Shown here one piece after another: positions 2,684 through 63,800 of a stretch of 64,000 bases of DNA. Made by a program: the position numbers and the translations under genes. The stretch is from Liolophura sinensis (taxonomy: Eukaryota > Mollusca > Polyplacophora > Chitonida > Chitonidae). The DNA is taken from positions 8,120,001-8,184,000 of the forward strand of contig NC_088300.1 in assembly GCF_032854445.1 (NCBI RefSeq). Direction: 5' to 3'. Under the pieces are notes generated by a model. That model was given only the letters and a program-made list of their open reading frames with translations. It was not told the DNA's origin and did not search any database. How positions within the stretch are numbered: the first letter of the stretch is position 1; each line of letters opens with the position of its first letter.

Positions 2684-5074
2684 ATAGATACAGCTGTAGA
2701 TATTAGGTACCGACCTATTAACTACCTCGTCTACATGGTAATGGTTGGTCTGTTATCAGGGTACTAGTACCAGGTTGATGTCTCTTCGCCTTATGGAAAA
2801 TTGGTCGAGATACTTATCACTGTTCATAAATTCAACGGCCATATCATGTCAAAGTCGACAGATTAAACACGACAATTCGGTCAGTGCTAACATATACATA
2901 CGAGGAGCTGGATGTGATAAGACAGACACAGCATCTAGGTATTTCGATCTGGAGAGCTCACCTGAAGCCTACATGTGCTGGCTGTCGTTACACGGGAACA
3001 CACGTACACGTCAAAAAATCTTTACAAGATAAAATTACGTAATTTGTGATAAATTACATTTTTTTTACCTAATTCTGCTGAAGTCATGGTCCAGGGTGGG
3101 TAGGTGAATATAAAAGCCTAACTCAGGTAAATTGATTTGACACAGGTTAGGTACATGTACCAGTATAATAATTTACCATTTATTACACTGCCTTCGTTTT
3201 TCTGGGCCCTGGTGTTCAAAACTGTTTTAAGCAGGTTTAATTTTAGGCCAAGTCTTAAGTTTAGAACTTAGCCCAAAAACAATTGCTTAACATTATATTA
3301 AATATAAACTATGAATCAACTACTTTGACTTTGGACAACTGCGTCGGCGGCTGAATTCGGCTAAAATTTAAATAGAAAACTGACTTAATACCAGTATTAA
3401 CTAATACACATTAGAACAACTGGACCCTGGATTTACTCTCTATGCTCTGTAGTCTTCTATATCGTACTGTTATGTAAAGGGATCCCACTCACATTTCCCA
3501 TTCTGTCCGGTTTTCCGGCGTACCTTATCAGATCGTGGCACCCAGTTATTCACCATCTACGAAGCATGGACTGGGTTGACAGATGCTAATATATGACGTT
3601 AATAAAGCGGTATACAAATAAACACAAGTGTAGATGTTGGCTGCCAGACACTAGACAGAAATGATAGCATGCAGCGGAATGTACAATGTGAAGTTCGTTC
3701 ACCCGGTTAAGTAATGTGTTCTAAGAATTTAGTTACACGTTGGCCTAAACCAGTTTCGTAATTTATGTATGATTTCACGTCAGGTTGAGATATTAATGGT
3801 GATGGTGTTATCGAGGTGGCAATGCCTCCATTAATACTCAGTGGCTGTAGAGAAGATTAGTACAGTGACATCAGAGAGTCAAAGATTGCCAGTCTAAAAC
3901 TGGAGCACTGAGATGCAGCCGATGTTCAGGTATACTGGTATGTACCACAAAATCAGGTGGCGATGTTAAAGAAACACCAGTACTGTGATACTATCTTGAT
4001 GGGGGCGTATTACCCTAGCACGGCTTACATATCTGTAATGGTAATTGAACATGCTTACTCTGAACTTACCGAACTCGAATACAATTCCGTTTACTCAGCC
4101 ATGGCTCATTTCAGTGGCATGTGGCAAATGATGGGAAGATACATGTAGTGCCATTTTTTCCTTCGAAAGCAACTTTTTGGTTTATGGTCAACACGATGTT
4201 TCGATATAGTTACTAACATCGTTATAAGCCTTGTTAATTGACCTCAAAAATGTTATACACGAAGAGACATGTGTGACAGAACTTAGCAGCTGGGATTTGA
4301 ACCAGCGATTTGAGGGTTTGGAGCAGACTAAAGGGAAATTCCCTCCAGCGCGGATGTAGATGGCGCTTTTATATCACCCTGTTACACCCTTACGGCCTTA
4401 TATTTGTTATATATACTACGTTTACAGGTGGTATTAGTTTACCACATTCTGTCACGGTATCAACAAAGTTGTGCTGTGGAAAATTGAATGGAAAGTGAGG
4501 AGGATAACTTTTTTCTTTCGATTCTGCCCTCGTATTGTTAGTAAATAGGACTGATGGCAGATGAGTAGTTTCTTTCATTCATTTATTTATTCAGGTTACA
4601 GATTTTTGCATACAAAGTATACAAAGTAAATGTACAAAATATTCATTTCCGTGACGAAAAACAACTGATGTCTTCCACACGATTTCACTTGTCCATATTG
4701 TCCCGCTATCTTATCACAAATATCGTTATGTTTAGCTGAGACAAAACTCAGTTCTCAACAGAAATAATGTCCGTCCCCTGTGATTCCACGAGAGCCGAAC
4801 ACGTTACGTTAATGATGGTATCCGAAGACAGGCCCCGGGAAAGCCACCTTTGATGTCCATATTTGTTATTCTTTAACATGTATCTGTCATACATGTAGTT
4901 TGATCCTAATGAGTCTTATCTCGGAGATACAATAACGTCACCCATACCTCAGTAGCCTTAGGCCGCTATGTTGTTTGGAGAAAGGCACTCTGTGCATGAA
5001 AATAAATCTTGACTTCTCATGGGGATAATGAGTCACTGTAAAACTGACGAAGACAGTGACTCCTGACTTAATGA
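2684..5074. other. No gene recognised
   Basis: Short frames only, without domain or splice support. A tRNA-head-like fragment (GGGATTTGAACCAGCGAT near 4292) may be a SINE remnant. Confidence 0.55.
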
Positions 5075-46528: not shown

Positions 46529-47583
46529 TCAGTTAGTGCTGTAGATATTGGTCCTCGGAAAGCCCACAAATGGGTTGTGCTTGTCTCTGTTGTCCTGGTG
46601 TTGACGGTGGCCTTGTCTTGAAGACCGCGGATAAGGGCTAGGTTTGGGACAGACCTCTGCTGCCATGGCTAAGTACCTGTCCAAATCTCCTTGTGAAATC
46701 ATCTGTCTGTACGGTTGTGGTAGGGTTCTAGGTGAGTCCTCTGGTGGATCGTCCCGGTCATATCCCCAGTAGTGACGAAGGTTATCCAACATCATCTTAA
46801 TGTCTTGGATCATGGTACCCAAGTCCATTAAGAGAATACCTCCGAATATCAACAGCAACATGGCCACCCCCAGATACCCAACGCTCAACGTTTGCCACCG
46901 TCGATCCATATTTACGCTCTTGTACTTCCGTATGTGCTTGGAAATATTCTTCTTGTTGATTTCAAGGTCTTGAATAATACTAGACAAAAATTCCTGTCGG
47001 TCACGTGTAGACGTTAAGTGTATAATACAAGTACAGTCGCACTCGGTGGCCACGATCGTTTCCGTAAGAGATGCGTTGGCCACTGATGTTTTGGTCTTCA
47101 TGCTTACCTCAGTGGCGTTGATCTCGAGCGTGGACGTCATTTCAATGTATGGAAAATCATCCGACGACATCTCGGTACACATTTGCCCTGTGGGTGTTAT
47201 TTCCACTGGTGTTCTTTCAGCTGGCGTCATAAGCGTGGATGTCAGATCAGTATTATCAGAAGGTTCCAAACTAAAGTGCGAAATATCCAATGCTGTTATT
47301 TCTACTGCATTAATGGAACTGGTCATAACAGACGTCGGCATCTCATCCTCAGTGACGCCATATGACGAGCTTGGTGTAGGTTCAATGGCTGGAGATGAAG
47401 CCAGAACTGCAGAAGTGGATGGTTCCTCTGTCAGATCACTTTTAGTAGGTAACCCTTCCTGTTCCTTTGTTGGCAGACACCCGTTGTAAGGATCTTCACG
47501 GGGAATAATGTCACAGTATTTCTCTACTTCAAAATACTCATCCTGGTAAACCGTAATTTTAGGCCTTTCAAAGTTTACAAATG
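46529..47583 (-). CDS. Receptor exon 5 (stalk, juxtamembrane module, membrane helix, tail)
   Basis: The acceptor TTTGTTTACAG precedes 2 nt + 350 codons + stop. Contents in order: a Tyr/Glu-rich linker with two cysteines, a Ser/Thr-rich stalk with degenerate VEIT/TST motifs, ECDCTC, an amphipathic segment with KKNISKHIRKYK, then MDRRW, a 24-residue hydrophobic helix ending FGGILLMDLG, and a Pro-rich tail containing YRQM and YLAM. The C.C.C / KK / DR / helix layout is one I remember from unnamed mollusc membrane proteins. Confidence 0.88.
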
Positions 47584-50500
47584 CTGTAAACAAAATTTGT
47601 GCAACAATTAATGATGTCCTTAATGGTGTCTGCTTACATAAAGTTATCACAGACTTGGTTAATTGTGATCCTTATTGCAACATATGCTAAATATATATGT
47701 TGTCATGGTAGCTACAACCAATCGTTTTGTTGAACTGGGCCTAAATCAATCTGTACTTTCTAAGCCATATTGAAGTTTTAAATTTATTCTTAAGTCAAAA
47801 AACGATTTAAGGAATCGGCCCCAGGGTCTGTTGAACACCTGATCTACTATGAGTATGTTACACCGTGTTCAGCGTAAAGAAGGAATTTATACCATCTGAT
47901 AGCAGTAAAACTTCTACAAATTACATGAAATCCACAACTTACGTTCGAAACATTCCTTGATATACAGATCCCAGGAAGCTGACTCTTCTGTAATATTTGT
48001 GTCCGTCAGTGGTTCGGATGTAAGGTAAAGAATGCAGACAGCCGTGTCTGTAGTCACACCGCTGAACCAGCACTCCTTTCCATTCACCTTGTCCTGGTAT
48101 CCCTGACAGGTGACAAGGCACTCCGTGTAATCGGTTACATTTACAATCTTCAAACTTATTGACGTATTTTCAAGAGAAGCCTCTGGGATGCGAGTATAAC
48201 TCATTTTACTGAACGCACATCCGCCTTAAACCAAAAAATAAGCAGTTTAATAAATATGACAGTTTTGTACAGGTCACGGCTTTGCGGTAATACAACTAGG
48301 TCTTGTTCATCATGGCAATGAAATCTGTCGTCTCAGTGTACGCCGTGTCTCCATCACAGTTTAGAAGAATAGGGCTACTATGTGCTATTGGGTAGGAGCC
48401 GACATTTGTTGCCTTACCTTCAAAAATACTGTGAACGTTAGCGAAAAGCAGTTCTAGCATTAAAAGAGATACTGTGTCCGTTTTCAAGAAGCACTCTTAG
48501 CATTAATGTAATTAAGACATACTGTGCTGGCTTTCAAAAAAAACCGTCTTAGCGTCAATGTATTTAAGAAATGCTGTGCGCGCTTACACGTGGAGGTCTT
48601 AGCGTTTGTGTCAATACTTAAATATGCTTGCACTAAACCATCTTAGCGTTAATGTATTTAATGAATACTTTGTGCGCTTGGAAGAAGCCAGATCAGCGCT
48701 CACGTAACTAGGAGATACAGTGGTCGCTTACACGAAGTCATCTTAGCGTTACTCTAACTACCATAGCAATAAAGAGAGAGGGCCAACATTTTATTTCTTT
48801 TAAATGTGGAACTCGATCCTGTCGTCTGGGATGTCTCATCAAGGCAACAACGAACAGAGGTACGTAATAACAACTGTTATAACACATATGTTGTAAATGA
48901 AAATAATGGTGATTATGGAATAGGTATTCTATCACAAACCCTATTGCATGCTGTCAGTTTTGGAGATGCGCCAGTTTTTTCTTAGTTATGACCTTAAATA
49001 CGGTATTTTTAATTTACAGAAAATGTTATGATTAGACTGATTAATTCGGGTTTTGTAATGCTCAACATCAACACACAGAGGGCAGTGCAGCCTCCTCCCA
49101 TGAAAGCAGTTCCAGATTAGTTAACGTGATGGTTCAGAGCCGTAAATGTGGATGCAAAGCTGGAAAAATGGTATTCCTAGTTGCCGCAATGTATGTTGTA
49201 AAACATGTATAGGATTCAGTATTCTGTGCAAGCGTTTAACCCGGTCGTCCACATACATTATAGTGTGTTAACTCAATTGTTTGTAGATTTTTCTTTTTTT
49301 ATTGCACAGGCCCTAATGTCGTTTAATTTTATTATATACTATCACAAATGCATTCTCTGCCTGTTGCCAATCAGTTGTCTCCTAGTATGGAATAGGATAG
49401 TGTAAAGTTGATACCACAGCTTATAATTGGTCGTGGTTTGTGGCTAATCCACAAAAGTCACACATTTTTCATCTCCAATTTTAGTCCCTAAAGGTTCCCG
49501 TCACCATGACAAGCTTATAAAGTTTATATATCATCTCCTGTAGAAACCCATAACTCTTGTACACCATCCAGGGGCAACACTTACCGCCTTCAACTGCGCA
49601 GATAAATGACACGTTGGTGCCTTCCATAAAGGTTTCCATAATTCTCGGTTCTAATTGGTTTAGCTGCATCGTTATCCCACCGGAGATTCGGTAACCGCTG
49701 GAGGCAGTGTGGTTAACCACAAGTTGATCAGGACACATCGGCTTTATCAAATCAAATTTCGTCTCTTCGCCTTGTCTGATAAGCGTGATCCCGTCAGTCA
49801 CAAGATGTATCTTCGACCTAGTAAGCAATGTAACAGTATAGCAATGTGGGTATAGTGATCTTCCTGTATAGGGCTACATATATTTGTACATTATGGACTG
49901 GTGTTTAAAGGTAGAAAAACAAAAAACAAAAACAAAACAACAACAACACTAAAATTAAAGTATATGTCGGATTAAAGATCATTAAACATCATTTTAATGA
50001 TTCCATTATAATTTTTCCAACAGACCTCTGTTTAACATTTTTGGACATGGCAGATTAGTATTAACTTACTGGAGTAATGCATCCCAGTTGTCGCGTACGA
50101 TAGTCAGCCACGAGTTTAACGTGCCCGCGAAGTACTCTGTGAAGAGCCAGCCGTTTTGGTCCCTGCACGTCTGCCACGCCTCCTCTACATCCCGCGGGTA
50201 GTAGTAAAGGGTGATATCCGTTTTATGGGACGGCCCAAAGTTGAAACATTCTGAGGAAAGACATGGAAGGCTGCAGACGTGGAAGTAAAGATTAATGACT
50301 TGGAGGAGATTGTGATCTTAGGCCATAACCTCACCTTCAACTTTAATTCACCATTTTCGTATAGACGTTTTAAAACCTTAATATACTGCGACTGCAAAAA
50401 AAGTGTGTAAAGATTTAGGTTTTGGTCCTAGTAGGATAGTTTGGACTGGAAGATTGTGGAGTATAAAGAATTTGTAAAAGGAGATGGGGTAAAAGATACA

Positions 50501-53500
50501 GGTGGTGTAGGCCTATAAATTTTATGGGCAATAAGACGACAAGGGTAGAGATTTAATTCAGTCCACAAAAGGATCTTTCGAGACTCAGCGAGGTAAGAAG
50601 AGTTCTAACCTGTGTGACATCACGCACATCTGCAGGTGATATTGGTGTTTATTTGCCCAATTTCCCTTGCCATGCAAAAGATCAAGGTAGAATGAAGTAT
50701 TGATAAAGTCTTGTTAATAAGCTTTCGGGCATGTCTTATAGAGACTCCAGTTTTGGAAATACCTTCTTGCACAAGAAATTGATATGGGACTGTCAAGAAA
50801 ATGTGCTGTTGAAACTAAAGCCAAGGGATTTGTACTTGTTCACTACATGTATCCATAGGAAACTGGCATCAAACCCTGACCAGAATTCTGACACTCAGCC
50901 TTTGGATGTCAGTCAAATATTCTGAAATCGACATTGTCCCGTAACTATAGATGACAAAACTGCTACAGGTATATGTTTAGCATAAATTTGAATATAAAAC
51001 TGTAATTGTGTCAGAACAGTGTTGGATTCTACCATGGTACACGATTTACATACTGGCTTCACTCATTCACCTAAAACAGTTTTTGTCGTTCCATCATCAC
51101 TGAAAAGTATTGACTGCTTCTCCTCGCGCCATACCGTCCTTATTTCGTACTTTACATACTTTCTTAGCTCTTTAGTGGTTTGCGTTAAACGTCGTTTTGT
51201 GAATTCGCCTTGCGATTGTTGAACGGAACGTCCATTTTGGTTGACCGCTGTTGTCCTTTTCGACGAATAGATCGATATTTACTTATTTAGAAGCTGTGCA
51301 TCAAAATGCCAATCACTCACAACGTCCCAAAGACTTACCCGAGCTCACAACATATCTTGAAATGATACAAACGAGAATTTTATCCAGTTTCTTCCTGAAG
51401 CGACTTAAATGCACACCTCTGCCGACGAACAGCAAAAGTTTCAAAAGCTTCATTTGAAGAGTTACTTCTCTTACTCATCTGTGGCCCACGCGGTTAACGA
51501 AAATTTCCAAATGTGCTAACCATCATGTTTTAAACTAGAATCCAGGAGGTACTGCTTTCGTAACGCTTGCGCGTGTCCCATAACAATTTGTGATAATAGG
51601 ATAACACACGCAGCTTTGCCGAGGTAAACAACAGATGAAAAATGGCCATAATTGTGTTTTAAATGGATGAAAGGGCCTCAAAACTGATCTGAACAAAAAT
51701 TGATCTGTAGCATATCATGGTGCAGAGTACCAATTTTCAATTAAGTATAATCAATATTTTGAAAAAGTCCATAAAACTTTGTAATGAAAAGTGGGCAAAA
51801 AGGGTTATAATTTTGGCCAAAATATTACGAAACCAGAACTTGATTTGTAGCTTGTCATGGTGTAGCAATGTACCCAGTGTCAAATCAACACTCTGAAGTC
51901 CGGAAAACTTTCTTGTGAAGGACTGGTGGGCTGAGAGATGGGGTCCCTCCCAGTTCTAATAAAATCTCCTCAACACATCACCACCACCCCCCCCCCCCCC
52001 CACCACCCCCACACCCCACCCCCATCGGCATACCACACCCTGCACCCATCCTCCGAGGCGCATCAAAATGTGGATTAATATACACAAGACCAATTTCCAG
52101 AACAACTTTTAACACAATTAAACCACAGAAAAATATCCAAGAAATATTATCTCCCGGTTGAGTGTGTTTATATACAGTTATGAAACAGAGCGTCAGAGAT
52201 ACTAGACACTCCATCCATATTTACCTGTACTTCTACAAAAAAATATTGTAATATTTTTGCAACACCTTAGAGAATAATGCCAGAGCAGCAGCGACGGTGC
52301 GATAGTTGGCAAATGATTAAATGTATAACCTGTAAAATCCATAGTTCATAATATAGCTCTTCGTGTCTCACTCGTGTCATACGTTTCCTGTATGCAAAGC
52401 TGGCGTTGCTTAATCATGTACTAGGAAACCAAGATCTTTCTGCATTATATAGCTGAGCTTTTCTGACATTAAGGCAGGGACCAGTAATCAGTTATCGATT
52501 TCTGGCTCCCTAACAGAAGAGTGTCGTTATAAGGCATAAAGTGATCTGAACATGGGTTTGCAGCTTTCCTTCCTGCTGGTATCGTTCAGCCACTCTCTTG
52601 GTGATTAATTGCCTGTTTGGTAAGGGGTGCTTATAGTCCATCGGAGTGTTCTACCGACTATACCCACTTTGTTTTGTCCTATTGTGGCACCCAAGACTCA
52701 CACACCCCTACTTGTTGAATCCCTACGTTCGGTCTGAGAACTTCAGACTGCAAACTTAGATTTGGTTCAGATAGCAAGGCTACCAAAGAGCTCGCCTGTA
52801 GAAGACACATGAATTTCAAACTTCGTTTGAGTACGTGAAGTACTCAAGTCGTGAATTTGGTAATTCAGAATGATTAATATGCATTATGGAACAGCCCTAT
52901 CGCCCTGATACAATAAGTCATATTTTGTGATTTACCATAATTAACACGTGAGCACATCACCCTCGTGTCATTTTGCTTTATATGCATGTAAAACCTCAGC
53001 TCAATATATGTAGTACTTTTTGAAGCACCACTCCTAATATTATGTTTAACATTGATTCTAATATACAAAAGGCTAAGTAGTGAATTTGGTAATTTACGGT
53101 ATTTAATATCACCGATGGGACATGACACCTGTGTTATTTTGCTCTAAATGTACGTGGACAACCTGAGCTCAATACAAGCAGTACACTACTCCTAACACTT
53201 TGTTTAGCTGGACGTCGACGCCGACGCTCGGGGTACAGCATAAGCTAAAGTACAGGCGAATAAAAAAATCTTATCTTTCTCTTTCAAATTGATAAAGCGT
53301 CTGGTTAGAGCGAATGGTCAGAGCGTCTACTTTGAAGTAGGGAGACCCGGGATCAAACACGGGTCTGTCATATCAAAGTGGTACTTCTTGCTGCCTCGCT
53401 AGGCGCTCAGCACTGATGGGTTAGAGCAAGGAAACGTGAGTGATTGGCCCAGTGTCAGTACACCATGACATGGGTGTCATGATATACTTCAGTGGAGGCA

Positions 53501-55705
53501 GCATGTTGTCGCCCTGCCACAAGAAGACACAGTATATGTATAGGCCTATGTAAAAACACCTAATGACTCCCCGTCGTCATATGACTGGCAAACTTTTAAA
53601 TACGACGTTAAACCCCAAGCGTTCATTCATTTAATTGATTGAAACATGATTGTCAACTGAAAGTGATGTCCACTGCACTGATTTGATTGATTGGTGTGCT
53701 CAGTCAGTAACAACAATAATAAAACTTTATTTCAGGCTTTCAGTCCATAGAAAGGGGCGTGGAAAACAGTCAGCGTTAAAGGAGCAAGAGCAATTCCTTG
53801 AACAGTTAGAAACTGTATAAAAGAACGTTGTGCCATTTTGCACGCAGTATAGAATGCTTTAAAGACTAAGTTTTGAGGGTGGAGGAAATCGACTTGCCCC
53901 AAGTACAACACCGGCTGACTATCTTGACGACAAGTGACGTACATTTTCGCCCGCCAAGTCTGTGTCACATCAGTGGTAGACTACCCTGACGCGAACATTA
54001 TGTCACAGAGCCAAGCAGTGCATTGTATGTAATGAAAAGGAATCGAAGGGTAACAGAATTTATATTTTACACCCAGACACCGTCACGCGAAAAGGCAACA
54101 TTTGGCCTAAGCTTGCCGTTGATTGATCTAAAGTGCATGACCACTGTGGAGGGAGTAAAACAGAATGGCAGCATGGAATATGCAGTTTTTTCGTTTTAAG
54201 GGGTACAATAGACTTTAACACCTTCGTCTTGGTGTGTGTTGTGTAACGAAACAAGGTTCAGCGGTATCGGTTTACACAACACACACCATGACGAAGGTGT
54301 TAAACCCTTCAGCAGTAGTGATGCAAACCATATGTCCCAAACATTGGTTGCAAATGTTCAATCTTTCTATGACGTCATGACGTCACAGTTGCTTTCACCA
54401 GGAATGGAATGAAAAGTAACTCTATCACGAGAACGTGGCCAGTGGAACGACGCGCTAGTGGCCACCGAGAAGAGAACGGAATGGACCCCAGGACTTCGAT
54501 TGTATTCGGTGGTCATTTACGCCGTCGAGTCAGCGCAATGTTCTAAACTACGGCTTAAAACAAATAAAATAAATAAATAACCATAAAGTCTCACCAATAC
54601 AAGAGTATTGCGTCCATACAATAATAATATATAGAGTGAACGTCAAACCCTTAAGGCATATGGACTGATATCAGCTGTTTGGAACTGTTTAGTTGTGACT
54701 CGAAGCGTAGCTGCCTACAGTCAGTCCATTGGACATGGTTCTGATAAGATCCTAGCCGGTACAGACTCATATACACTATATGTGTCACAGATCCCTTCGT
54801 GAAATCTAACGGAAAAGACAGCTAGAATGTTTACTCTATAAAGCAGAAGATGTATAGTTGTTTGAAGGCAACAAGAAATCCAAAGCATGGACAATTGTAC
54901 TGCCACTATCATTGTCTCACAAAATTACACCTTTTGAGAGTGATCTCGTAATCTTTAGGGTATAAGGGAATGATCGTCTTCGGCATGATACTTCAATGGC
55001 GGCGGATTCACCGTGTTACAATAAGATACAGCATATATAATTATGTACGCATACTGAATGATTCCTCGTCACCATATGACGGAAGAATTGGTAAGTAGGC
55101 CTACGACGTAAATCCCAAGGCATACGCACATACATACACATACAGAGTAAGAAAACACCGCCATTTTCAAGCCTTATTAACGACACACAGTTGTAATGTT
55201 TGTTAATGGGGACCTGTCAAACGCCCAGCAGCAGGACGTCATTTTGTTGACATCAAATGTTCCTTCCCCAGCTCCTCATTATGACGTCACATAAAGAGTG
55301 TACGACGTTTCAATACAAACTGATAGATTGTAACACTATAGACGTTCCGTAACAATCCATTTTTGACAAAACAATGGCTGAAGGTCTTGCTTCACATTAG
55401 CGCCATTGAGTTGAGTGTGATAGGCCGAAAGTTTTTAACAATTTCCCCATACATGCTGCAAGAGAGAAATTTGGTCCACATACAATCCGATACAGTCAAT
55501 AATTACTACCCTGAATTGATTTCGGCTGTAACTTAATCTAACTGGTCTTATAACATTATTGTGGTTATAGAATGCACCGTATTATCGTTAGTATAGGAAT
55601 GCTGGATACACTGACATGATGTATACCTGAGTCACAGTCCGTGTCCTCGGTGTAGACTGGTATTACCATGACTGACACCAAACCTGACACCAACAGCGAA
55701 TACAT
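46529..55705 (-). CDS. Lectin-like/PAN/mucin-stalk type I membrane receptor, five exons (609 aa)
   Basis: Exons 55705-55627, 50250-50070, 49817-49585, 48224-47943 and 47583-46529 join in compatible phases (1, 2, 1, 1) into one 610-codon frame, stop included. In order it has: a signal peptide (about 1-17); a C-type-lectin-like region (about 24-164) with EEAWQTC near the start and SFICAVE near the end; a PAN/Apple-like domain (about 166-258) with the ECLVTC...KECWF cysteine pattern; a Ser/Thr/Pro/Glu-rich mucin-like stalk (about 298-436); Cys440-x-Cys-x-Cys444; a basic stretch; a membrane helix (about 490-513); and a 96-residue tail. The tail has two YxxM motifs (Tyr550, Tyr562), the consensus bound by PI3-kinase p85 SH2 domains when phosphorylated. 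Several N-glycosylation sequons lie outside the membrane. I do not recognise a named gene. A cell-surface recognition or signalling role is inferred from the domain order. The lectin call is the weakest part: one expected cysteine pair is not evident. Confidence 0.82.
47943..48224 (-). CDS. Receptor exon 4 (PAN/Apple-like domain)
   Basis: The acceptor ATTTTTTGGTTTAAG and donor GTAAGT bound 2 nt + 93 codons + 1 nt, a symmetric phase 1-1 exon as expected for a shuffled domain. Cysteines in TECLVTC, GKECWFSG and TAVCILYL follow the PAN/Apple spacing. Sequons NTS, NVT and NIT are present. The symmetric phase means it could be skipped or swapped without a frameshift. Confidence 0.82.
48440..48760. 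repeat. Degenerate tandem repeat of about 60 bp, about 5 copies
   Basis: Recurring blocks ATCTTAGCGTTAATGTATTT, then AAGAAATACTGTGCGCGCTT, then ACACGAAG. Strongly diverged. It lies in receptor intron 3, just upstream of the PAN exon. Confidence 0.7.
49585..49817 (-). CDS. Receptor exon 3 (lectin-like domain, second half)
   Basis: The acceptor ends in CTTACTAG and the donor is G|GTAAGTG. The exon is 1 nt + 77 codons + 1 nt. It has Cys115 and Cys160; Cys160 sits in SFICAVE, similar to the last strand of C-type-lectin-like domains. Sequons are NHT and NVS. It enters in phase 2 and leaves in phase 1, matching its neighbours. Confidence 0.8.
50070..50250 (-). CDS. Receptor exon 2 (lectin-like domain, first half)
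   Basis: The acceptor is TTTCCTCAG and the donor is GTAAGTTA. The exon is 2 nt + 59 codons + 2 nt. It contains VEEAWQTCRDQNGW, which resembles the helix-2 region of C-type-lectin-like domains (aromatic, Ala, Cys, then Gly/Asn-Gly). The short 252-bp intron to exon 3 supports their pairing. Confidence 0.8.
51980..52025. repeat. Poly-C/CCA low-complexity tract
   Basis: A run of about 15 C, flanked by CCACCA and CACCCC repeats, in receptor intron 1. The Gly-rich minus-strand frame through it is an artefact. Confidence 0.9.
53276..53640 (+). mobile_element. tRNA-derived SINE C, near full length
   Basis: A-box-like TGGTTAGAGCGAATGG at about 53303-53318 and B-box-like GGGATCAAACAC at 53349-53360 form a tRNA-type pol III promoter. 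A body with GCCTCGCTAGGCGCTCAGCA and GATTGGCCCAGTGTCAGTAC follows. The 3' end reads GTCGTCATATGACTGGCAAA then TACGACGTTAAACCCCAAGC with a CATTCATT tail. It resembles SINEs I remember as widespread in molluscs. In receptor intron 1. Confidence 0.85.
54214..54304. repeat. Near-perfect 33-bp inverted repeat (hairpin), 25-nt loop
   Basis: The left arm 54214-54246 starts TTTAACACCTTCGTC and the right arm 54272-54304 ends GACGAAGGTGTTAAA. The arms pair with one mismatch in 33. It lies in receptor intron 1. Confidence 0.92.
54955..55135 (+). mobile_element. 5'-truncated SINE C
   Basis: Shares the 3' half of the 53276-53640 element: ATGATACTTCAATGGCGGC, CTCGTCACCATATGACGGAA and CTACGACGTAAATCCCAAGG with a CATACATACACA-type tail. 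More diverged than the first copy. Confidence 0.75.
55627..55705 (-). CDS. Receptor exon 1 (signal peptide)
   Basis: ATG at 55705-55703 opens a 26-codon exon that starts MYSLLVSGLVSVMVIPVY, a hydrophobic signal peptide, followed by an acidic stretch with Cys24. The donor is G|GTATAC, phase 1, which matches exon 2. A polypyrimidine tract and AG lie just upstream on the minus strand (about 55720), so a 5' UTR intron is possible. An upstream out-of-frame ATG lies between that AG and the start. Linking this exon to exon 2 across 5.4 kb rests on phase and sense only. Confidence 0.65.
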
Positions 55706-60823: not shown

Positions 60824-63800
60824 GTAAGGAAGAATATTGTGTTGTTATCTTTGTGTGTATTTTTTTTAATATTGTTTCATTTGCCCACTTTAACCTTTGT
60901 AAACAATGAGTCAGAAAGATTGTGTCTACCTTGTAGTTCATCGGTTAAATAACAAGGTTTCTGGTCATAGTTCTAAGTATCTTAAACCAGCATTAAATAT
61001 ATTTTTAGATTTTTTTTTCAACCCAGTGAACATTTAATGAAACTTGGTCTTGTCACAGCTTCAGCATGTCTCTATTATTGACAGCAGTGTAATGTCACAT
61101 TTATTGTAGCCCTGATACTCTGATAAATAGCTTTCTCGGAAATAGGACATACTAGAAGGACTTTTTTCTACTGCTTGAAATGTTTGTGCAGTAGGCCTAC
61201 TACATTGTTCGTTCAGTTTACGAGTGGCCTGCAGATGCACGGCCAGGGTATCCCTGGTTCAGGTTGTAGCCTCCAGAGGGGTTTTGGTGATACGGGTAAT
61301 TCTAATTTTTAATAAATGTTTAGAAAATCATAATAGGATTGTTGTACAGCTGAATTCATGCTCAATTCTGACACAAATGGAAATAAATCTAAGCACAGTT
61401 TAGTTTACACAAAACAAAAGTGCATGCCAAGATGCAAGCGCACATGTGCACAGGAGCGAAGAGAGTTAATTTTGTTGTTAAGTAGCTTTCGGCACAGAGT
61501 TATCTCCTGCAACATCTCTCCGTAGGTTGCAATGGCTGCGAACAGTGTTTACTGTGCTTTCGGTGAATAATAAATGCGTGGTATCTTTATCATTCCGCCA
61601 TAAATTAGAAAGCAGAACTTACACTTGTCCATCCATTGACATCTCATGCTTGGCTTGCGATATTTTTTTTTGAGGTGAGGTTGGGGGATGGAGGGGAGGC
61701 CTGTTTTAAGTTGGCCTCTGCGTCAATCTTTTTACTGTCATTTTCGTTATTCCATATGCCCACTTTCTCTTTCTTTACTTGTTTGAGTTTACTCATTCAT
61801 GTTTTCCCTTTTAACAGAGCAATGTTATTTGGTGGCCTACGGGAATCATTACCGGAGACAAGGGAGGTTACCCTCCCTAACACATCTGCAGCTGCATTTC
61901 GGGCTATTCTACGCTACATTTATACTGGCAAGATGAGTCTCACTGAACTGAAGGTATTGCTTTTATTGGTGGTTACGTGAATGGGGCAGCCTCTCTCAAG
62001 AAATGACTACTTATTCATTAAAAATATTAATTTTTAATGAAGTCATGAATTGATGATTATAATTAATTGGGAAATGATGCATGATCCTTTTCACGATGTT
62101 CAATTTGTCACATTTGATCAAAAATGCAACATACATGTACATGTATATTGAATCATAACCAGATAGTGATATCCAACTGTTCAGCTTTAATGCTACCTTT
62201 CATATCAGATATACAACTGAACTTGTATGGCATCACATTTCTTGTTTTTTACATATGTATATGTAAATCTTACAAATTTCTGTGGTGGTATATATACCTG
62301 TATGTAGTTAATACCTCTTTCTGCTGTTATTAGCTTACTGTTACTAGGTAAGGTGAGGTCATGTGATGATGTGGGAAGGTGTAGGTTTTCAAGTAGACTC
62401 TACTGTTAACCTTGGATTTGCTGTGTACAATATCAGTCATTGGATTTTTCTGAATTTATACAGATTTTCTTATTTTATAAATCCTGATGCATTCCTCTTT
62501 TTCCATCTTTCATTCGGCTCAAGTGATAAACACCACCTGATGTCAGGGAAGGGAACTGGCCAGGCTGTCGACCGCATACAATCTTTTAACAGAGACTAAA
62601 AAGACTGCTTTGGTTTATTGTGAAGGTTTCATACTGTTTCTGTGAGTTTCAAGCTTATTCATCATTGAGCTACATGTTACTGAACTGTGTACTTTCAGGA
62701 GGAGATTTTACTGGATGTCCTAGGCCTGGCTCACCAGTATGGGTTCTTGGAGCTGGAGTCTGCTATATCTGACTTTCTCAAGGCCATTTTAAACATCCGC
62801 AATGTGTGTCTCATCTTTGACCTGGCTAACATGTACAATCTCAAGTCCCTGTGTCAGACGTGCGTGGAGTACATAGATCGTAATGCAGAGGAGGTACTCA
62901 CTGGAGAGGCCTTCCTCTCATTGTCACAGGTTTGCCACAAATTTCTCTCTCACAACACTCACCCTCACAAAACTAAGAGTGTGAATCAGAGCCATGGCAG
63001 TTGACTTCAGGCTAAAACAGTTAACTCCTGGCTCTGAGATCACAAAGCAATTTAAGACTTAAGTCAAAATTTCATTCATTACACTTGGCACTTTCCGTTA
63101 TTTTAGCTGAAATTTGTTTTACAGTGATTTTCCCAGAATTTACGGAGCGAAGCAATATTTTGACCTTACTATGTAAGAAATAACAAAAGTGATTTGAAAC
63201 TGTGACATACATATAAGTCTGTGATCCCTCCATGATCCCGGGGCCTGGCATTATAAGGCTGGCTGTCTGTTCATTTCATTTGATTATTGGTTAAGTTTTT
63301 TTTAACACCCTGGTGTTCAATGGTATTCAGGTTTATGGGTGGAGGTAACAGGAGTGCCCAGGGTAAACCACCAACCTTCAACAAGTTATGAGGCTGTCTA
63401 CAATATTGAGGACTTTTTGTGTGTGGAAATAGCCAGGCTTTTTTCCAGGCTGTTGTCATTTAATATTCGTTGACATAAGAGAACATGATTAAGTTGTTTG
63501 GTAAATATATTTTTGATCTGATGTTCTTGTTGAAAACAAACTCACTTGTCAGTATATATCACATGTGGCTTATAGTTGTGGCTGTTTATAAAGTTTGATA
63601 GGTCCAAGATTTGTTGTACTTGTGAATGTAGCATTAAATGTTTAGGTGATCAATCGCCAGGTGTGCTTTAATTCAGAGACGTTTATGCTTTCCAGTCTTC
63701 AATCCGAGAGCTCATAGCGCGGGATTCTTTCTGTGCCCCTGAGATTGACATTTTCAAGTCTGTGTGTGATTGGTCAGAGCACAATGTTGGGCAGGACCCG

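Follow-up and report, generated by a model that had tools for sequence, protein, structure and literature searches.

A diverged singleton gene of the chiton Liolophura sinensis belongs to a large family of putative lectin-headed receptors with a common membrane anchor

A stretch of 64,000 nucleotides from the Liolophura sinensis genome (assembly GCF_032854445.1, contig NC_088300.1, positions 8,120,001 to 8,184,000; hereafter the window, in which positions are counted from the first letter) was analysed for a candidate receptor gene on its minus strand, between positions 55705 and 46529. Splicing of five exons, with AG and GT at all four introns, yielded an open frame of 609 residues. The gene was found to belong to a large family with many members in this genome, in which a C-type-lectin-like domain encoded by two exons, a PAN domain, a Ser/Thr-rich stalk and an anchor consisting of a C.C.C motif, a juxtamembrane stretch and a hydrophobic membrane helix recur in this order. 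With a probability of about 0.6, the window gene encodes a type I membrane glycoprotein that is a diverged singleton of this chiton receptor family, with a head that would bind a partner and a tail that would act in signalling or endocytosis. Judged from its domains, a role of the window protein in recognition is plausible. The lectin-headed family is apparently unnamed; what is new is this family with its common membrane anchor, more than the window gene.

Recurrence of the domain order in the Liolophura sinensis genome

A genome of 609,464,459 bases in 632 contigs was searched with a query taken from the window gene (46730..47074, minus strand), the module that spans C.C.C, the juxtamembrane stretch and the membrane helix. 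The search returned 68 matches, the query itself included, of which 52 had E values of 1e-3 or lower, with relatives from E 2e-16 downward. Among these 52 modules, 46 had another one within 100 kb and 23 were located on the contig of the window (C6). The window gene is a singleton, its nearest relative at E≤1e-3 being 2.55 Mb away and a weak one (E 0.008) approximately 0.48 Mb away. Upstream of the 68 modules, within 15 kb and on the same strand, Pfam matches were found to C-type lectin domains at no fewer than nine, to PAN_1 at no fewer than seven and to F-type lectins at three. For lectin, PAN_1 and F-type, respectively, the scored hits numbered 1, 0 and 0 when the opposite strand was considered upstream; downstream they numbered 1, 2 and 1 on the strand of the module and 0, 1 and 0 on the other strand. 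Of the genome candidates, 150 of 176 were scored for PAN, 150 of 376 for lectin and 142 of 142 for F-type. When the PAN domain of the window gene was used as query, matches lay upstream on the same strand at 6 of the 68 modules, as compared with 1 upstream on the opposite strand and 3 downstream on the same strand.

Eighteen loci were read: 12 that had been picked for their upstream matches (L041-L052) and, with the window excluded, the six best-scoring modules that lacked such matches (L053-L058). In scans with exon-level hidden Markov models (HMMs), the first lectin exon (lectin-N), the second lectin exon (lectin-C), the PAN exon and the module were found in the order of the window gene at 15 of these loci (11 of the 12 flagged and four of the six unflagged ones). 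No lectin/PAN set was detected within approximately 9 kb at L058 or at L053, where a marginal lectin-C match (E 0.018) was the only one. The lectin-N, lectin-C and PAN HMMs had been built from 10, 9 and 8 flagged loci, respectively, which match by construction; independent of HMM building were L046, L054-L057, the PAN exons of L044 and L050, and the lectin-C exon of L051. Some of the independent matches were weak (for example L055 PAN, E 0.011; L054 lectin-N, E 0.001). Where both strands were scanned, in 11 loci and one stretch of the window, the reverse strand gave no matches. A first-pass annotation of the window had proposed an undescribed receptor architecture. With 68 module matches in the same genome and the same domain order at 15 of 18 paralogous loci read, this reading as a lone novel architecture was rejected.

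Splice phases were read at the best-scoring site of any phase, and every tie included a site of the phase stated here. Lectin-N exons had a phase-1 acceptor in 8 of 10 cases (L045 and L052 tied) and a phase-2 donor in all 10. For lectin-C exons, an acceptor of phase 2 and a donor of phase 1 were each found in 8 of 9 (L043 and L050 tied, respectively), while PAN exons were bounded by a phase-1 acceptor in 7 of 8 (L043 tied) and a phase-1 donor in 6 of 8 (L042 and L045 tied). Excluded from this check were the loci L046 and L053-L058 as a whole and, at L044 and L050, the PAN exon. In the window gene, exons 1-5 are entered in phases 0, 1, 2, 1 and 1. Exon 2 (50070..50250, minus strand; phase 1 to 2), exon 3 (49585..49817, minus strand; phase 2 to 1) and exon 4 (47943..48224, minus strand; phase 1 to 1) carry the paralogue phases exactly. 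The phase-1 domain borders and the domain order of the first-pass annotation hold. Exon 5 (46529..47583, minus strand), entered in phase 1, encodes the stalk, the C.C.C module, the membrane helix, the cytoplasmic tail and the stop. Because paralogues elsewhere in the genome show the same exon kinds, order and phases, exons 2-5 are independently supported.

The mean pairwise identity of head domains was 0.22-0.25, versus 0.34 for the anchor. At L049 (4777-6530), F-type lectin exons precede the stalk and C.C.C anchor, which represents an alternative head on the same anchor. The evidence for F-type heads rests on the genome F-type matches and on the reading of L049; a frame of L029, in which an F-type tail was expected, matched nothing in Pfam at E≤1. 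The earlier suggestion of exon shuffling thus received some support from L049 and from the phase-1 borders of the PAN exons. The congruence of domain distance matrices, used as a test of shuffling between paralogues, gave rho values between -0.02 and 0.29, with mean identities in the range 0.22-0.34; these values speak neither for nor against shuffling, since the unalignable lectin-C row of the window gene was set to zeros. With this zeroed row, rho was reached in 38 of 2000 permutations for lectin-C and module and in 63 of 2000 for lectin-N and module, while the four remaining pairs gave 240-1136 of 2000.

Head, anchor and tail of the window protein

Exon 4 encodes a PAN domain, as the first-pass annotation had proposed. 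Scanned alone, this exon matched Pfam PAN_1 with 21.6 bits (cut-off 21.4), and against an HMM built from the PAN exons of eight paralogues, without that of the window gene, it scored 42.8 bits (E 1.2e-12), as compared with 8.1 for the best of 500 shuffles. The PAN cysteine pattern was present, with five invariant Cys across eight sequences, and PAN_1 was matched at E≤0.1 by seven of eight PAN exons, that of the window gene among them. When the whole 609-residue protein was compared with Pfam, no family was found at E≤10.

The first half of the C-type-lectin-like domain was assigned to exon 2 on the basis of the paralogue phases and of its alignment relative to shuffles: in global alignment it resembled the first lectin exon of the paralogues (z 5.3), at a score reached by 0 of 1000 shuffles. 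Exon 3, aligned in the same way with the second lectin exon of the paralogues, gave a z of 1.2, and 118 of 1000 shuffles reached its score. Paralogues in the same test, left out one at a time, gave z values of 9.0-18.5, and their spliced lectin pairs matched Pfam Lectin_C in nine of nine cases. Against the lectin HMM of the paralogues, the spliced exons 2-3 of the window gene reached 2.4 bits, a score exceeded by at least 6 of 500 shuffles, and hhalign aligned 31 columns, in exon 2 only (E 0.014, probability 3%). Against Pfam, the lectin-like region of the window gene showed a single, chance-level match (NADH_u_ox_C, E 0.21) and none to Lectin_C. The second lectin exon contains two Cys in the window gene versus four in 14 of 15 paralogues. 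These results suggest that the description of this region as lectin-like applies to exon 2; for exon 3, lectin identity by profile was not supported. We read the lectin domain of the window gene as degenerate, its second half being placed by position and phases while a sequence match is absent.

In C-type lectin domains, EPN or QPD together with WND are the long-loop motifs for Ca2+ and sugar. Exon 3 contains no EPN, QPD or WND motif, and in the 15 paralogue lectin-C exons EPN was found in one, QPS in two, and WND or WID in none. Because of the scarcity of EPN and WND/WID in the paralogues and their absence from the window gene, classical Ca2+-dependent sugar binding appears unlikely across the family as read. 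Since nearly all lectins of the family lack Ca2+/sugar motifs and that of the window gene has lost part of its core, protein-type or PAN-borne binding by the window head would be more likely than classical sugar binding. Lectin-N has a single Cys and lectin-C another four in 13 of 15 paralogues; with this odd total of five, one Cys could remain for an inter-domain or inter-chain bond.

A mucin stalk, a C.C.C module and a membrane helix had also been proposed, and a Ser/Thr-rich stalk, the module and the helix were confirmed. Ser and Thr make up 26% of residues 259-463, which comprise the stalk and the start of the module. The module, in which residues 440-444 are CDCTC, is common to the family. 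Its predicted membrane helix, VGYLGVAMLLLIFGGILLM (46826..46882, minus strand), has a 19-residue mean hydropathy of 2.41 and is followed by an Asp that all 21 modules of an alignment share. Invariant positions in this alignment were C, C, R, S, R and D. The window gene shows the anchor features of the family, which are C.C.C, an RRKY/SA juxtamembrane stretch, a GxxG helix and the invariant Asp, and its module scored 115.9 bits (E 1e-34) with a module HMM that had been built including the window sequence. It has diverged at, and lacks, the common DxRPSA stretch. Comparison of the 21 modules with Pfam yielded nine families, each matched by one member, of which none was convincing (best E 0.011, DUF7167), and the anchor module had no match in the PDB at E≤1. 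Given its conservation and the lack of a convincing relative in these two databases, the anchor would therefore constitute a new domain family.

The cytoplasmic tail (46532..46825, minus strand), counted from the invariant Asp, is 98 residues long and stands out in the family by this length: the tail measured 14-51 residues in 34 of 36 genes, L009 and L050 being counted as one gene (for example 21, 41, 15 and 14 in L013, L020, L045 and L048, respectively), the exceptions being the window gene and L043 (at least 89 residues). It contains YRQM, YLAM and NPF; YxxM is a binding motif for the SH2 domains of PI3K, and NPF for EH domains. Among 20000 shuffles of the tail, 580 contained at least two YxxM, 227 contained NPF and 5 contained both, counts that are weakened by the selection of these motifs after inspection of the tail. 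The end of L043 (C6:33197300), the second long-tailed paralogue, carries the tyrosine motifs YNRDM, YIEN and YDLP and shows no clear C.C.C.

Taken as a receptor, the window protein would have a stalk that keeps its lectin/PAN head at a distance from the membrane, where the head could bind a protein or glycan partner. The anchor, with its GxxG helix and the invariant Asp at the inner end, may pair with itself or with a partner protein. Through the YxxM pair and the NPF motif of its long tail, the window protein might be linked to signalling or endocytosis, functions for which relatives with short tails would depend on a partner.

First exon and alternative interpretations

Exon 1 (55627..55705, minus strand) is the least certain exon. 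It provides a start codon, the signal-like peptide MYSLLVSGLVSVMVIPV and a phase-1 donor (AG/GTATAC). Another candidate first exon (51339..51453, minus strand) has an ATG and a phase-1 donor that agrees with 7 of 8 consensus bases, and its signal peptide is weaker. Expressed as the 13-residue mean of the hydrophobic core, the proposed signal peptide reached 2.45, versus 1.86 in the rival. A signal-like upstream exon was found in 7 of 14 paralogues, approximately 0.25-1.24 kb before the lectin exon, and in none of the other seven; this count required a phase-1 donor score of at least 5, excluded one candidate that overlapped the lectin exon, and included some loci with little upstream sequence. 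That exons 2-5 form one unit with a different true first exon and N-terminus, either at 51453-51339 or in an unseen exon, is a serious possibility, if slightly the less probable one: the better donor of the rival speaks for it, as do the weak donor and long intron of exon 1, whereas the hydrophobic core favours the proposed exon. This alternative is compatible with membership of the receptor family as set out above, and both may hold. Of the five phase-matched exons and 609 residues originally proposed, the open frame, the splice sites and exons 2-5 thus stood, while exon 1 remained insecure. Likewise, assignment as a type I membrane protein is backed by a clear helix but weakened by a signal exon that is distant, has a weak donor and faces a rival.

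Several observations weigh against the interpretation of the window gene as a diverged member of a receptor family with a binding head and a signalling or endocytic tail. In addition to the scores of exon 3, the restriction of the hhalign alignment to exon 2 and the choice of tail motifs by inspection, single-sequence fold prediction of the PAN domain gave a poor model (predicted local distance difference test score, pLDDT, 57.7). A PDB search with this low-confidence model returned no match at E≤0.001 and no PAN protein among the 50 matches listed. The uncertainty of exon 1, whose donor agrees with 5 of 8 consensus bases and lies 5.4 kb from exon 2, points in the same direction.

One alternative is a mucin-type surface protein with a structural or adhesive function, in the glycocalyx or in cell adhesion, whose head would be a spacer or self-adhesive, with neither recognition nor signalling. 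The Ser/Thr stalk, the degenerate lectin core and the short tails of 34 of the 36 genes agree with such a function, but the head domain order has been kept in 15 of 18 loci and head sequences are more variable (0.22-0.25) than the anchor (0.34), and this explanation is considered unlikely. Still less probable is a decaying paralogue that is losing its lectin domain and turning into a pseudogene. Although the resemblance of exon 3 to a lectin half has gone, the DxRPSA stretch has been lost from the module and the gene lies as a singleton far from the clusters (2.55 Mb; the weak relative at approximately 0.48 Mb), its frames are open and its splice sites intact over 609 codons, and the PAN domain and anchor still score well. 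The diverged receptor-family member remains the preferred reading.

A more far-reaching interpretation, to which an equally low probability is attached, is that the family provides the chiton with a repertoire of recognition receptors, at least 50 in number. Such a repertoire would combine one constant, undescribed anchor with exchangeable heads (C-type lectin and PAN, or F-type lectin) and mostly short tails, a few being long with YxxM/NPF, and would form a paired-receptor-like self/non-self system independent of those of vertebrates. If so, the anchor HMM and head exons would define a concrete gene set for studying how animals without antibodies diversify their surface receptors.

Related systems and minor features

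A profile of the paralogue heads matched 254 PDB sequences at E≤0.01, of which the 60 listed were C-type lectin domain proteins by name or recall, the mannose receptor group and Fc-epsilon RII included. Exons 2-3 of the window gene occupy the same position, with the same phases, as the lectin exons of its paralogues, but their second half is unrecognisable and the sugar motifs are absent. To our knowledge, neither PAN nor the C.C.C anchor is part of those C-type lectin receptors. Similarity to PAN/apple proteins was found with a profile of eight PAN exons, that of the window included, which matched the N domain of HGF (E 8e-6) and plasminogen (E 0.01); the window gene differs in having a single PAN domain on a membrane protein, with no other Pfam family in the whole protein. 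F-type lectins (fucolectins, F5_F8_type_C_2), which precede 3 of the 68 modules on their own strand at a distance of up to 15 kb, are an alternative head in the family and not a domain of the window gene.

Searches with a single paralogue anchor in viral contigs, prokaryote contigs and phages, which are non-animal collections and uninformative for other molluscs, found no relatives. Similar C-termini presumably occur in predicted proteins of other lophotrochozoans. Among the literature matches listed, no paper on the lectin-PAN-stalk-C.C.C architecture was recognisable by its title or the start of its abstract. Bivalve C-type lectin domain-containing proteins (CTLDcps) with lineage-specific domain architectures, uncharacterised and proposed to be immune, are likewise molluscan C-type-lectin proteins that carry extra domains, but the extra domains named for them include WSC, sushi and scavenger-receptor domains, and the main text of that article names no PAN domain, words starting with 'pan' being limited to 'pan-genome' and 'Panel' (PMC10140915).

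Repeats and additional open frames were observed in introns of the window gene and of L043 and elsewhere in the window. The proposed intron 1 contains an inverted repeat (54214-54304) with 33-nt arms that are 97% complementary and 25 nt apart; scoring of 40 of the 218 genome candidates gave at least 89 matching pieces, and the element resembles a miniature inverted-repeat transposable element. Imperfect repeat units, mostly spaced by approximately 50 nt, occupy positions 48426-48756 in the intron preceding the PAN exon. In L043, the intron between PAN exon and anchor (3898-4908) contains two open frames that resemble a Tc1/mariner-type transposase. Outside the gene, on the plus strand of the window, an open frame ending in FGGLRESLPETREVTLPNTSAAAFRAILRYIYTGKMSLTELK (61609-61977) may be a BTB-domain exon.

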